A DNA stretch of 35,541 nt from IMG/VR virus record IMGVR_UViG_3300022413_000027, positions 1 through 35,541 of that record, one strand, 5' to 3'. Every line of letters begins with the position of its first letter. The first letter of the stretch is position 1. Below the pieces are notes generated by a model. The model searched no databases. It saw nothing but the letters and a program-made list of their open reading frames with translations, and was not told the DNA's origin. The position numbers were made by a program, and so were the translations under genes. Positions 94 to 26,542 of the stretch are shown here, in pieces. Source of the stretch: a virus.

Positions 94-603
94 GTGGCGC
101 GATATCCATGCGAGATGTGCAAAAAGCACGCGACCAACAAGGTGGGGAATCTTGACTATCGCGCCGACGGAACGTGTATTCGATGGCGCAAGTGCGATGC
201 GTGCCAGCACCGGTTTCAGACAGCCGAAGTGCCGTTCAGTTTGCTGGAGAAGTTGCACAGCGGTGCCGCAGCCAAACCCAACGGCAAGCCCAAACCGAAG
301 CGTCGCAAGCCGAAGTTGCCTAACGATCCGCTCGGACGTGCGGCGGCGATTCACAAGATGATGTGCGACGAGCTCAGCGAGATCTACGTGGACCCCGACT
401 TGTCACCCAAGGAGCGGCGCGATCTGATTCTTAAGTTTGGCAAAGCGATCGATTCAGCGATGCCGAACGTTGAGATCTTCCACGCACGGCAAGAGGTTCG
501 CGGCGACGAACAGCAAACCAAGTCGAACGTGTCTGGCGCGGAACTCACTGAGGGCCCTAGCCGGGCGCGGCGGCGGCTGAAGGCCAAGGCGGCCAAGGAG
601 TGA
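94..603 (+). CDS. NrdR-like zinc-ribbon phage protein, possible small terminase subunit
   Basis: A 169-residue protein starting at GTG. Residues 6-45 form a four-cysteine zinc ribbon (C6-x2-C9, then C34-x2-C37) followed by HRFQTAEV. This resembles the N-terminal zinc ribbon of the NrdR regulator, where a basic stretch, CxxC and RFxTxE occur in the same order. No ATP-cone domain follows, so it is not NrdR itself. A Lys/Pro-rich linker (about 60-78) leads to a helical region (about 85-140, containing DPDLSPKERRDLILKFGKA) and a very basic C-terminus. A DNA-binding ribbon plus a helical domain, encoded a little upstream of the large terminase, would suit a small terminase subunit. A transcriptional regulator is the alternative. 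The stop overlaps the next start (TGATG). The zinc ribbon is clear; the role is inferred. Confidence 0.6.
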   Translation: MARYPCEMCKKHATNKVGNLDYRADGTCIRWRKCDACQHRFQTAEVPFSLLEKLHSGAAAKPNGKPKPKRRKPKLPNDPLGRAAAIHKMMCDELSEIYVDPDLSPKERRDLILKFGKAIDSAMPNVEIFHARQEVRGDEQQTKSNVSGAELTEGPSRARRRLKAKAAKE

Positions 604-1319
604 TGCGTGAGCTGGCACTTTTTGCAGGAGGGGGCGGAGGCATCCTGGGCGGACGATTGCTTGGATGGCGCACCGTCTGCGCTGTTGAAAGCGATCCCTA
701 CGCGCGATCAGTTTTGCTCGCGCGACAATGCGACGGGTGTCTCAACGAGTTCCCTATCTGGGATGATGTGTGCACGTTCGACGGATACCGCTGGCGTGGA
801 GTCGTTGACGTTATCAGTGGAGGTTTCCCCTGTCAGGACATCACGGCGGCAAACGCCCATGGCGTGGGGATCGCCGGACCGCGAAGCAGACTTTGGTTTC
901 AGATGGCCCGGATCATTGGCGAAGTTCGACCCAAACACGTGTTCGTGGAAAACGCGCCAGCGATCATTGTTCGGGGGGTTGAGCATGTACTCGGATCGCT
1001 GGCCGCGCTCGGGTACGATGCGCGATGGGGAGTTCTGGGAGCGTCCGACCTGGGAGCTCCACACCGTCGGGAACGATTTTGGCTGGTGGCCAACGCCCAT
1101 GGCGTCAGTAAGTCAATGGATCGGTCACCCGAGTTCGTGTCGGCAGTTGCTGAAAGATCGCGGCTTGCGTGGTGGTGTCAACCCGGAATTCAGCGAGTGG
1201 CTGATGGGGTGGCCGATAGGGTGGACCGAATTAAATGCACCGGCAACGGTCAGGTACCAATCGTGGCTGCAGTCTCATTTGCGATGCTTAGCGACCAACA
1301 CATAGTCGGCCAACGATGA
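603..1319 (+). CDS. C5-cytosine-specific DNA methyltransferase (Dcm type)
   Basis: A 238-residue enzyme expected to transfer a methyl group from S-adenosylmethionine to C5 of cytosine in the phage DNA. Motif I (SAM binding) is LALFAGGGGG at 4-13. Motif IV with the catalytic cysteine is GGFPCQD at 73-79 (Cys77). Motif VI is ENAP at 116-119. Motif VIII is HRRERFW at 154-160. Motif X is GNGQVP at 214-219. The region between motifs VIII and X (about 163-210), which normally holds the target-recognition domain, is only about 45 residues, so the protein is short for the family (usually 300 or more). Target specificity cannot be read from the sequence. The ATG at 603 overlaps the upstream stop; GTG 600 is an alternative. 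The only nearby Shine-Dalgarno, AAGGAG at 595-600, is 2 nt from this ATG. Almost the whole gene is also open in the +1 frame. It probably protects phage DNA from host restriction. Confidence 0.9.
   Translation: MRELALFAGGGGGILGGRLLGWRTVCAVESDPYARSVLLARQCDGCLNEFPIWDDVCTFDGYRWRGVVDVISGGFPCQDITAANAHGVGIAGPRSRLWFQMARIIGEVRPKHVFVENAPAIIVRGVEHVLGSLAALGYDARWGVLGASDLGAPHRRERFWLVANAHGVSKSMDRSPEFVSAVAERSRLAWWCQPGIQRVADGVADRVDRIKCTGNGQVPIVAAVSFAMLSDQHIVGQR
607..1305 (+). CDS. overprinted +1-frame ORF inside the methyltransferase gene, conserved phage protein type
   Basis: A 232-codon frame starting at GTG 607, 4 nt after the methyltransferase ATG, and stopping 14 nt before its stop, so nearly every base is shared. 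The product begins MSWHF and has DGAPSA (20-25), FDPNTCSWKTRQRSLFG (107-123), WPRSGTMRDGEFWERPTW (132-149), WPTP (161-164) and NPEFSEWLMGWPIGWTEL (192-209). I recognise this order from proteins annotated next to or within phage Dcm genes; this is memory, not a search. Each motif is the shifted reading of a Dcm motif: MSW from REL, the WLMGWPIGWTEL segment from VADGVADRVDRI just ahead of motif X. AAGGAG at 595-600 is 6 nt from this GTG, an ideal spacing. The function is unknown. The residual doubt is whether it is translated or whether its conservation is a by-product of the Dcm frame. Confidence 0.55.
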   Translation: MSWHFLQEGAEASWADDCLDGAPSALLKAIPTRDQFCSRDNATGVSTSSLSGMMCARSTDTAGVESLTLSVEVSPVRTSRRQTPMAWGSPDREADFGFRWPGSLAKFDPNTCSWKTRQRSLFGGLSMYSDRWPRSGTMRDGEFWERPTWELHTVGNDFGWWPTPMASVSQWIGHPSSCRQLLKDRGLRGGVNPEFSEWLMGWPIGWTELNAPATVRYQSWLQSHLRCLATNT

Positions 1320-24151: not shown

Positions 24152-26542
24152 ATGGCACTGATTACCGATCCCGACAATCTATCCCAGGGGAATCTAACGA
24201 CACCGACGGATGCCGTGTGGGGAACACCAACCGGCGCCACCGTCACGATCACGTCGGCCGGTTCGGGGCTGCCCTCGATCACCGCAAACGATTATTTCGA
24301 GGTGCGAGACCACTCTGACCCCGAAAACAATGGGCTTTACAAGGAGTCCGGCGGGTCGCCTGCCACAGGATCAATCACTGCTGACAAGGTGACCGGGGTT
24401 AACCCGGTAGCCAACGCGGTCGGCGAAACGATTCGCACGTTTCACACAGATGCGTCGGCATCGACTGAGAAGTCTGTACATTTCGATACGGACGCCAACG
24501 ACGTCTATTTGCTGCAGCAAGGCAACCTGTCAACAGACGGCGTGACACTGCAGGCGCTCTATTCGTTCGCGAAAATCGAGTGGGAAAGCGATCCGGATCT
24601 GATCCCGTTCGATTTCCCGTTCCAAGGGATTACCCCGGAGCAATTCGAATTCATCGAAGATTGGACACCGGCCACTCCGGCGGGCGAAGCCATCACAACA
24701 GAGAAGTTGATTCGTACTGGCGGGTGGTCCGAGATCACGTCGGCCGATGTGACGCTGAAACAATATTTCGGCGTCATCACTCTAGGTACGTTTGAAGATT
24801 CTGGCGCCGACACCGCCTACTATATTTTCGGCACCGATCCGTTGGTCGATAATTCAACGGACTACGAATTTGCGGGGCCGGTGAATGAGGCGGTTCTCTC
24901 GTTTGAAGAACTCGGGAACCCTGACACGTGCGATTTTGCGACGAGCAGCACGATCACGCGCGCATCGGGGTCGTTTATCACCGACGGTTACAAAGTCGGC
25001 GGCGCTGTTACCGTCCGAGCGGCAACCGTTGGCGGAAACGATGGGACGCACACGCTTACCGGCGTCGCAGCTCTGACTCTAACGGTGTCAGGTACCCCAT
25101 TCACAACGGGCACCGATACCGCCGCGCAGCTTGCGGTAGATAACCGAAGTTCGTTCTCAACGAGACTTCGTGTGCGTGACGCTGATCCCAACGGCAAGCT
25201 CTACGATTTCTCGGATCTGACCGCAATTGGTGTCTCGACGCTAACCAACAAGGTCGAGCGTTTCCCGCTAGCGAATGCCACCGACCTCAAGGTTTCTGAG
25301 ACTGACGCGAACATAAACACAAATGTTCCGTACATAGACATGAGCGTTCGCTACCTTGACGCGACGTTCAACATGGAAATCGACACAACGACGAAGCGCG
25401 ACTTCGGGATTGTGATCGACGTCGGCACCTACTCGGAAAGTAACGGCGCATCGGCATCGTCAACGCTGTTCACGTCGGCGAACATTGGAGACATCACCGT
25501 CGGGGATTACACAGGCGGCGAGCTCATCATCCATGAGGGGACGGACCAGGGCACACATACAATTAGCGGTACCCCCGTAAACAACGCTGGCACATTAGAG
25601 GTAACGACAACGGTGTCACTCACTGCCACCGAGTCAAACTTGTCGTTCACTTTGCAGCGCTCCACCCCAGTTACTGCTACTGCCGAAGAGATATACGAGT
25701 TCGTGCAGCGCCAGTTGCGCCGGACAACCGATATCGATAACACCGACGGCACCGTGATCGGTCGCGCTGCCGATGACCTCTTAACGTTTGTTGGTGACAC
25801 GTTAAACGCCGGGGTCGGAATTCCTACCAACCCCGCCGGATCCGGAAGCGGCACGGTGATCGTCGGCTTTGATTCGAACGACACCAACAGGCTCGGATTC
25901 ACCGACAACGGTGGGACGCTAAGAAACTTCCCATTCGTCGCGGCCGGGACGATCAACTTTAACCCCAACCTCGTCAGCGACTCGATGGGCAGCTATTGGA
26001 TGTTCTTTTCACATACGGGATCGGATGCGGTTGCCGATCTAGCGTTTAGTGGCGTATCGGGTGCAACGGCATCAATGGACTCTGCTGGCAGCAACCTTCC
26101 CACCCTGACCCAGGACGACTACATTAACGTTACAGGCGCGACCAATCCTGAGAACAACGGGATTTGGATCGTGACCGATGCATCGCCGTCGTCAACGCAG
26201 GCGGACGTACGAAAAGTTTCCGGCGAAACCGTCGTCAACGAAACAGCATTCGCGGGCACTATCGAGCACAACCCAATCAACAGCCCGAGCGCGATCATCG
26301 TAGACAACAACGCCGGCGCTGACATTTCTGGCTCGATCGGCGGCGCGAGCGTTGCGTTTGATTTCGACTACGACGGAAATACTCAGGGAGGCCGCACGGC
26401 GGCCACAGATGCCGCGATCACGCTCCGAGCCATCGGGTTAGAGACGGGTCAGTTTGTCGAGACGACCGGAACGATAACGCGAAACGTGGGACTAACGTTC
26501 TCGTTGGTCGCGGGTCTTGAACGTAACTACAGCAACCCGTAA
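24152..26542 (+). CDS. large beta-rich adhesin/tail structural protein
   Basis: A 796-residue protein, rich in Thr, Asn and Asp and predicted mostly beta. A module of about 29 residues (SAGS-x-LP, T-x-x-DY, PENNG) occurs near the N-terminus (35-63) and again near the C-terminus (644-672). The middle contains DPDLIPFDFPFQGITPEQFEFIEDW and LIRTGGWSEI, a segment I recall from other phage structural proteins without a named function, and EEIYEFVQRQLRR (about 510-522), a helical element. The C-terminus is LVAGLERNYSNP; the protein at 27227 ends in the related LDRNFSNP. This is a candidate receptor-binding or fibre-linking protein. No enzyme motif is seen. Confidence 0.6.
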   Translation: MALITDPDNLSQGNLTTPTDAVWGTPTGATVTITSAGSGLPSITANDYFEVRDHSDPENNGLYKESGGSPATGSITADKVTGVNPVANAVGETIRTFHTDASASTEKSVHFDTDANDVYLLQQGNLSTDGVTLQALYSFAKIEWESDPDLIPFDFPFQGITPEQFEFIEDWTPATPAGEAITTEKLIRTGGWSEITSADVTLKQYFGVITLGTFEDSGADTAYYIFGTDPLVDNSTDYEFAGPVNEAVLSFEELGNPDTCDFATSSTITRASGSFITDGYKVGGAVTVRAATVGGNDGTHTLTGVAALTLTVSGTPFTTGTDTAAQLAVDNRSSFSTRLRVRDADPNGKLYDFSDLTAIGVSTLTNKVERFPLANATDLKVSETDANINTNVPYIDMSVRYLDATFNMEIDTTTKRDFGIVIDVGTYSESNGASASSTLFTSANIGDITVGDYTGGELIIHEGTDQGTHTISGTPVNNAGTLEVTTTVSLTATESNLSFTLQRSTPVTATAEEIYEFVQRQLRRTTDIDNTDGTVIGRAADDLLTFVGDTLNAGVGIPTNPAGSGSGTVIVGFDSNDTNRLGFTDNGGTLRNFPFVAAGTINFNPNLVSDSMGSYWMFFSHTGSDAVADLAFSGVSGATASMDSAGSNLPTLTQDDYINVTGATNPENNGIWIVTDASPSSTQADVRKVSGETVVNETAFAGTIEHNPINSPSAIIVDNNAGADISGSIGGASVAFDFDYDGNTQGGRTAATDAAITLRAIGLETGQFVETTGTITRNVGLTFSLVAGLERNYSNP

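Follow-up and report, generated by a model that had tools for sequence, protein, structure and literature searches.

A phage locus that very probably encodes a two-subunit C5-cytosine methyltransferase in two overlapping reading frames

In a phage with a contractile tail, two overlapping reading frames of a single DNA segment very probably encode a heterodimeric C5-cytosine methyltransferase. The segment lies in a 35,541-base virus record, called the window here. Frame 0 (the Dcm frame) specifies the catalytic subunit, alpha, and the +1 frame specifies a second product, beta; we infer its translation, its assembly with alpha, its part in specificity and the biological role of the enzyme. Alpha would do the chemistry, contributing AdoMet binding, the PCQ motif with its catalytic cysteine, ENV and motifs VIII and X, and beta would bring a recognition region and motif IX, completing the small domain and recognising DNA. 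Beta would initiate independently 4 nt downstream at the ribosome-binding site used by alpha, so that both subunits would be made together from one mRNA. The assembled alpha and beta would then be enzymatically active and methylate the phage DNA, probably as protection from restriction by the host. If this is true, the locus holds an unusually long and well-supported same-strand overlap, about 230 codons, between two proteins of one enzyme.

The locus and its catalytic frame

Downstream of the methyltransferase locus lie genes for the terminase large subunit, portal, major head protein, tail sheath, tape measure and baseplate hub. An ORF of 796 aa among the structural genes (24152-26542) gave no PHROG match at 1e-5. 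The neighbours of the methyltransferase gene are a small upstream ORF at 94-603 and, on the other side, an ORF at 1316-1639 with no function assigned. The upstream ORF, which gave a weak NrdR-like zinc-ribbon match below the cut-off (E 0.001), might encode the small terminase subunit. Translation of this ORF and of the methyltransferase may be coupled, since the stop of the one overlaps the start of the other: nine bases hold three signals, namely the stop of the upstream ORF, the alpha start and the beta start (Table 1). Across 86 loci, the Shine-Dalgarno sequence lies a median of 5 nt from the Dcm start and 9 nt from the +1 start. A minus-strand ORF of 130 aa (708-1100) also lies inside the methyltransferase gene.

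Table 1. Features of the methyltransferase locus in the window, and poly-G/C tracts in related loci (locus:position)
Feature	Position	Strand	Basis or remark
Shine-Dalgarno-like AAGGAG	595..600	+	Sequence; 2 nt to Dcm ATG (603), 6 nt to +1 GTG (607)
Overlapping signals TGATGCGTG	601..609	+	Upstream ORF stop TGA 601-603, alpha ATG 603-605, beta GTG 607-609
Alpha, C5-cytosine methyltransferase catalytic subunit	603..1319	+	Motifs I-VIII and X, without motif IX; VIII-X region very short
Motif X GNGQVP, alpha frame	1242..1259	+	Sequence
Beta, putative +1-frame subunit, 232 aa, with recognition-like region and motif IX	607..1305	+	PHROGs 1008, 26627, 27243, 35493; hhalign to split and single-chain enzymes
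Beta residues 1-101, N-terminal extension (MSW...)	607..909	+	Present in this clade; not in the shorter mycobacteriophage betas
Beta residues 102-160, core FDP..SWKT..WPrSGtMRdGe....T	910..1086	+	Common to separate beta genes (hhalign)
Beta residues 161-190, WPTP and variable stretch, presumed target-recognition region	1087..1176	+	Position in Ramsey gp69
Motif IX in beta frame, VNPEFSEWLMGWPIGWT (alpha reading of the same DNA, IQRVADGVADRVDR)	1177..1227	+	hhalign; third bases of Dcm R198, G202, A204 and D208 frozen
Poly-G/C tracts in relatives	L083:2088, L122:3811, L123:4246, L087:3051, L124:2555, L116:4190, L125:4250, L067:3281, L076:2180, L049:4494, L032:4505, L053:956, L119:4251		

A first-pass annotation of this DNA had described two long same-direction frames sharing about 700 bp, one of them a Dcm-type methyltransferase with motifs I, IV, VI, VIII and X, and both points were borne out. 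The Dcm frame comprises 238 codons from its ATG, or 239 from an in-frame GTG at 600, and is overlapped nearly end to end by the +1 frame, which is open from GTG 607 to the stop at 1305. PF00145 matched the Dcm frame and not the +1 frame (E 4e-26, 92.6 bits, cut-off 22), and phrog_363 matched alpha with E 5e-55. Motifs I, IV (PCQ), VI, VIII and X were all seen in alpha, with motif VI, which is ENV in the family, reading ENA in the window. The PF00145 match covers profile positions 2-172 of 324; because it ends there, alpha shows no recognised equivalent of the C-terminal portion of normal C5 methyltransferases. The annotation had remarked on a very short recognition domain; the gap between motifs VIII and X is short and variable in the aligned loci. 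Alpha does not qualify as a single-chain C5 methyltransferase: motif IX lies within the +1 frame instead.

AlphaFold2 modelled alpha confidently (pLDDT 84, pTM 0.82). Comparison of the model with M.HhaI gave Z 21 over 215 residues, and its top Foldseek match was M.HaeIII. The stretch between motifs VIII and X, residues ~170-207, was short and poorly predicted.

Conservation and selection in the +1 frame

An open +1 frame could be an untranslated by-product of the amino-acid and codon constraints on the methyltransferase. Conserved Dcm residues do dictate part of the +1 sequence, and the +1 landmark motifs quoted by the first-pass annotation, all correct, necessarily correspond one by one to Dcm landmarks read in the shifted frame. 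An AlphaFold2 model of beta alone is also poor (mean pLDDT 58), only residues 190-220, the helices around motif IX, coming near 80-85; such a model might fit a protein with an obligate partner, or a non-protein. Evidence on this reading comes from stop codons, start codons and substitution patterns.

Homologues were fetched with the methyltransferase protein alone (80 viral loci) and with the +1 protein (51). The annotation had proposed looking for +1 stops in homologues: among the window and the 80 loci chosen by the Dcm frame alone, none was found within the overlap (0 in 81/81 genes), against 4.7 expected per gene from within-gene codon shuffling and 6.9 from flanking-gene codon usage. Under synonymous recoding of the same 81 methyltransferase proteins, the mean P(open) per gene was 0.003-0.006. 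For the window itself, whose +1 frame has 0 stops, 3.3 were expected by within-gene synonymous shuffling (P(open) 0.0075) and 5.0 from flanking-gene codon usage (P 0.004). A +1 open run of 200 occurred in 3/176 flanking genes of at least 200 codons, and a +2 run of 200 in 0/81 methyltransferase genes.

The +1 start is steadier than the alpha start, which also speaks against a by-product. It lies 4 nt after the methyltransferase start in 106 loci, usually as xTGAATGAG(C/T)TGG, and is ATG in 102 of these and GTG in 4, whereas the methyltransferase start in the same loci varies (ATG 76, GTG 21, TTG 9). Six loci carry TTA, which is no start, at the usual methyltransferase start position and still keep the +1 ATG. 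In nine loci the +1 start precedes the assigned methyltransferase start by 5 nt, and M[ST]W is still read in several of them; M[ST]W also persists in the +1 frame of L039, L054, L055, L072, L088 and L118 despite a changed methyltransferase N-terminus.

Substitution rates were estimated with an overlap-aware method from 45 disjoint pairs of relatives, with site classes given as Dcm/alt. Changes per site were 0.66 where silent in both frames (SS), 0.25 where silent in Dcm only (SN), 0.15 where silent in the +1 frame only (NS) and 0.08 where silent in neither (NN). The SN/SS ratio was 0.39 (0.35-0.44) in the overlap versus 0.75 (0.64-0.90) in 43 homologous flanking gene pairs given the same treatment, and NN/NS was 0.54 versus 0.76. 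The SN/SS ratio alone is not decisive, because it was also low, 0.41, in the short stretch past the beta end, where SS sites are few.

The strongest evidence for dual selection is the positional freezing of silent sites. Third bases were frozen at eight Dcm codons (N2, R109, A134, G137, R198, G202, A204 and D208); G137 is GGG in 121/121, A204 is GCC in 109/109 and D208 is GAC in 116/116. Other conserved Dcm codons, such as G214 and L229, have a third base that is free to vary. Each frozen base falls in the middle of the codon for a strongly conserved beta residue (M1, D108, P133, G136, E197, G201, P203 and T207, respectively), and these eight residues are conserved at 86-100%. The suppression of synonymous sites that the annotation had proposed to look for in the Dcm frame was thus found, with third bases frozen where +1 residues are near-invariant and SN/SS below that of flanking genes.

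Taken together, the stop counts, overlap-aware rates and positional freezing led us to reject a chance open frame, and purifying selection in both frames is strongly supported. With the motif IX homologous to that of genuine single-chain enzymes (see below) also standing against it, the by-product reading is scarcely credible.

Poly-G/C tracts of 8-12 bases are enriched in the methyltransferase genes of relatives, with 11 in 62 kb of methyltransferase gene versus 7 in 493 kb of flanking DNA (odds ratio 12.5, p 5e-7, near-duplicates removed), and most of them sit at two hot spots, one just past motif IV and the other just past motif VIII. At five loci both frames are interrupted by the tract, and close relatives are in frame. 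This suggests phase variation of both subunits at once, for which homopolymer assembly error is the alternative. The window's own methyltransferase gene contains no such tract.

These tracts in some relatives, together with the presence of two same-direction overlapping frames, could favour another reading, in which programmed frameshifting from one frame to the other, and not separate initiation at the +1 start, yields one product. Against this, the +1 start and N-terminal sequence are conserved in their own right, a shift from frame 0 to +1 would cost alpha part of its motifs, and the window's gene lacks a long homopolymer tract. Programmed frameshifting is therefore disfavoured as the source of beta, and we consider it very improbable.

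Identity of the +1 product

Searches of Pfam and NCBIfam with beta gave no match, and the hit of a PDB sequence search (3nng, E 0.47) was rejected as noise. Profile comparison was informative. With hhalign, whose E-values apply to single comparisons, the beta family aligned to the split betas (Firecracker gp5/Blue7 gp91/Phanphagia gp66/Diva gp50/SOVA965) with prob 99.8 and E 2e-30 over 136 columns, and to the single-chain set with prob 92.9 and E 3.7e-7, exactly at motif IX; as a control, its comparison with its own alpha set gave no match. The alignment to the shorter betas begins at residue 102. On these alignments, the beta C-terminus NPEFSEWLMGWPIGWT is the motif IX of a C5 methyltransferase that is missing from alpha. 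Motif X is absent from the window's beta.

These findings altered the view of the second protein. The first-pass annotation had called it an unknown protein, which no longer holds, since in its C-terminal half it shares homology with the recognition and motif IX region of ordinary C5 methyltransferases (hhalign, phage homologues); beta would therefore be a subunit of a frame-split enzyme. The proposed overprinting stands as far as dual coding under selection is concerned, which is strongly supported, and only the N-terminal half of beta (~residues 1-100) is without a known counterpart. Of the roles that the annotation had suggested for the second protein, the supply of specificity is the one favoured by the evidence.

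A stand-alone unrelated protein or anti-restriction factor was dropped as a candidate once motif IX had been recognised at the beta C-terminus. The +1 product might nevertheless be real and act as a regulator, inhibitor or anti-restriction factor, with alpha active alone, and two observations lean that way: nothing in shorter betas or single-chain enzymes corresponds to beta residues 1-101, and alpha retains motif X. However, motif IX is missing from alpha, whose VIII-X region is very short in the aligned loci, and is present in the +1 product; other phages carry the same sequence as an in-frame fusion. We regard such a role as unlikely, and the activator, inhibitor and anti-restriction functions floated by the annotation found no support. 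A heterodimer in which beta complements alpha remains our preferred reading. PHROGs 26627, 27243 and 35493, of unknown function, and 1008, named only 'DNA methyltransferase', would then be probable specificity subunits, and recoded cloning of the annotated frame alone could yield an inactive enzyme.

Phage relatives and known split methyltransferases

A literature search of open-licence papers found no paper on overlapping phage cytosine methyltransferases. A survey of P. larvae phages (PMC6070908) lists cytosine methyltransferases and does not mention a nested or internal gene, and no example of this kind is named in the main text of the GeneTack frame-transition paper (PMC3711429). Annotators had noticed nested genes in Paenibacillus phages, as in Diva gp50 ('g49 internal gene') and Shelly ('g55 internal gene').

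In mycobacteriophage Firecracker, gp6 carries motifs I-VIII and then ends, and gp5 overlaps it in +1, with the same core as the window's beta followed by VNPAFAEWMMGWPDGWVT and then motif X IIGNGVCPQQAVLAL in frame. The layout is repeated in Blue7 gp92/91, in Phanphagia gp65/66 and in an unannotated +1 ORF over phiBT1 gp9.1. These mycobacteriophage pairs and phiBT1 share with the window the alpha and beta families and the +1 overlap; unlike in the window, the annotated overlap of the mycobacteriophage pairs covers only the 3' part of alpha, and their beta holds motifs IX and X. In the Streptomyces phage phiBT1, the unannotated +1 frame (L145:1821-2750) runs over and beyond gp9.1 and has a recognition-like region and motifs IX and X. 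Gp9.1, annotated 'DNA methylase may be inactive', is probably the alpha subunit only, and phage methyltransferases called truncated or possibly inactive in this way may be active with an overlooked beta frame.

Diva gp49/gp50 resembles the window in having a methyltransferase with motif X and a nested +1 ORF, ending NPDWVECLMGFPIGWT, but its beta starts ~61 codons into alpha and the window's at codon 2. Other phages have a single chain with motifs I-VIII, EWMMGxPxG(W/H)VT and motif X (Neville gp75, Ramsey gp69, Nimbo gp63 and Darolandstone gp38). In the single chain of Ramsey gp69, motifs VIII and IX flank an LLPTPxARD stretch; the PTPxxxD stretch, at the TRD position in single-chain enzymes, falls in beta here. 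In the Gordonia phage Neville, the +1 frame of gp75 (L151:924-1784) keeps a recognition-like LFPTPRSADAIAGPDFSRANRPNSGGDDLVTVIAR, similar to Blue7 beta, with motifs IX and X in frame 0. This stretch may be a sign of frameshifts moving parts of the recognition region between frames.

The beta start thus falls at about codon 124-136 of alpha in Blue7, Firecracker and Phanphagia, at codon 61 in Diva and at codon 2 in the window. Single-chain, partly overlapping, nested mid-gene and end-to-end forms can be arranged as a series with the beta start ever further upstream, the evolutionary order being one that we infer. The two-frame design occurs across many phages and has so far been mostly unannotated or labelled 'unknown'. 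A bolder proposal, which we put forward only tentatively, is that of a widespread phage class in which the recognition half moved to the +1 frame of the catalytic gene and was extended upstream stepwise until the overlap ran end to end; this would have created a new overprinted N-terminal domain, with a poly-G/C off switch for both subunits in several lineages.

The small subunit of M.EcoHK31I is nested in another frame of the large-subunit gene, and the window's second polypeptide is similarly encoded in another frame inside the first gene. The window's nested ORF differs in that it covers almost all of the alpha gene and starts 4 nt after it. M.EcoHK31I (YGGCCR) is a naturally split C5 methyltransferase (PMC3439449) whose large subunit has motifs I-VIII and X, with motif IX in the small polypeptide (PMC3404938); the title of the primary paper, cited in PMC3404938, states that it needs two proteins in vitro. 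By motif layout the window's locus is like it, with motifs I-VIII and X in alpha and motif IX in a second polypeptide. The recognition domain of M.EcoHK31I is predicted in the large subunit (PMC3404938), whereas in the window it is apparently in beta. The active form of M.AquI (CYCGRG) consists of two polypeptides, with the split around the variable region (PMC3404938). Its beta carries motifs IX and X, while the window's motif X stays in alpha (GNGQVP), so that the window's locus is not of the AquI type; mycobacteriophage pairs of the Firecracker gp6/gp5 kind are nearer to M.AquI than the window is.
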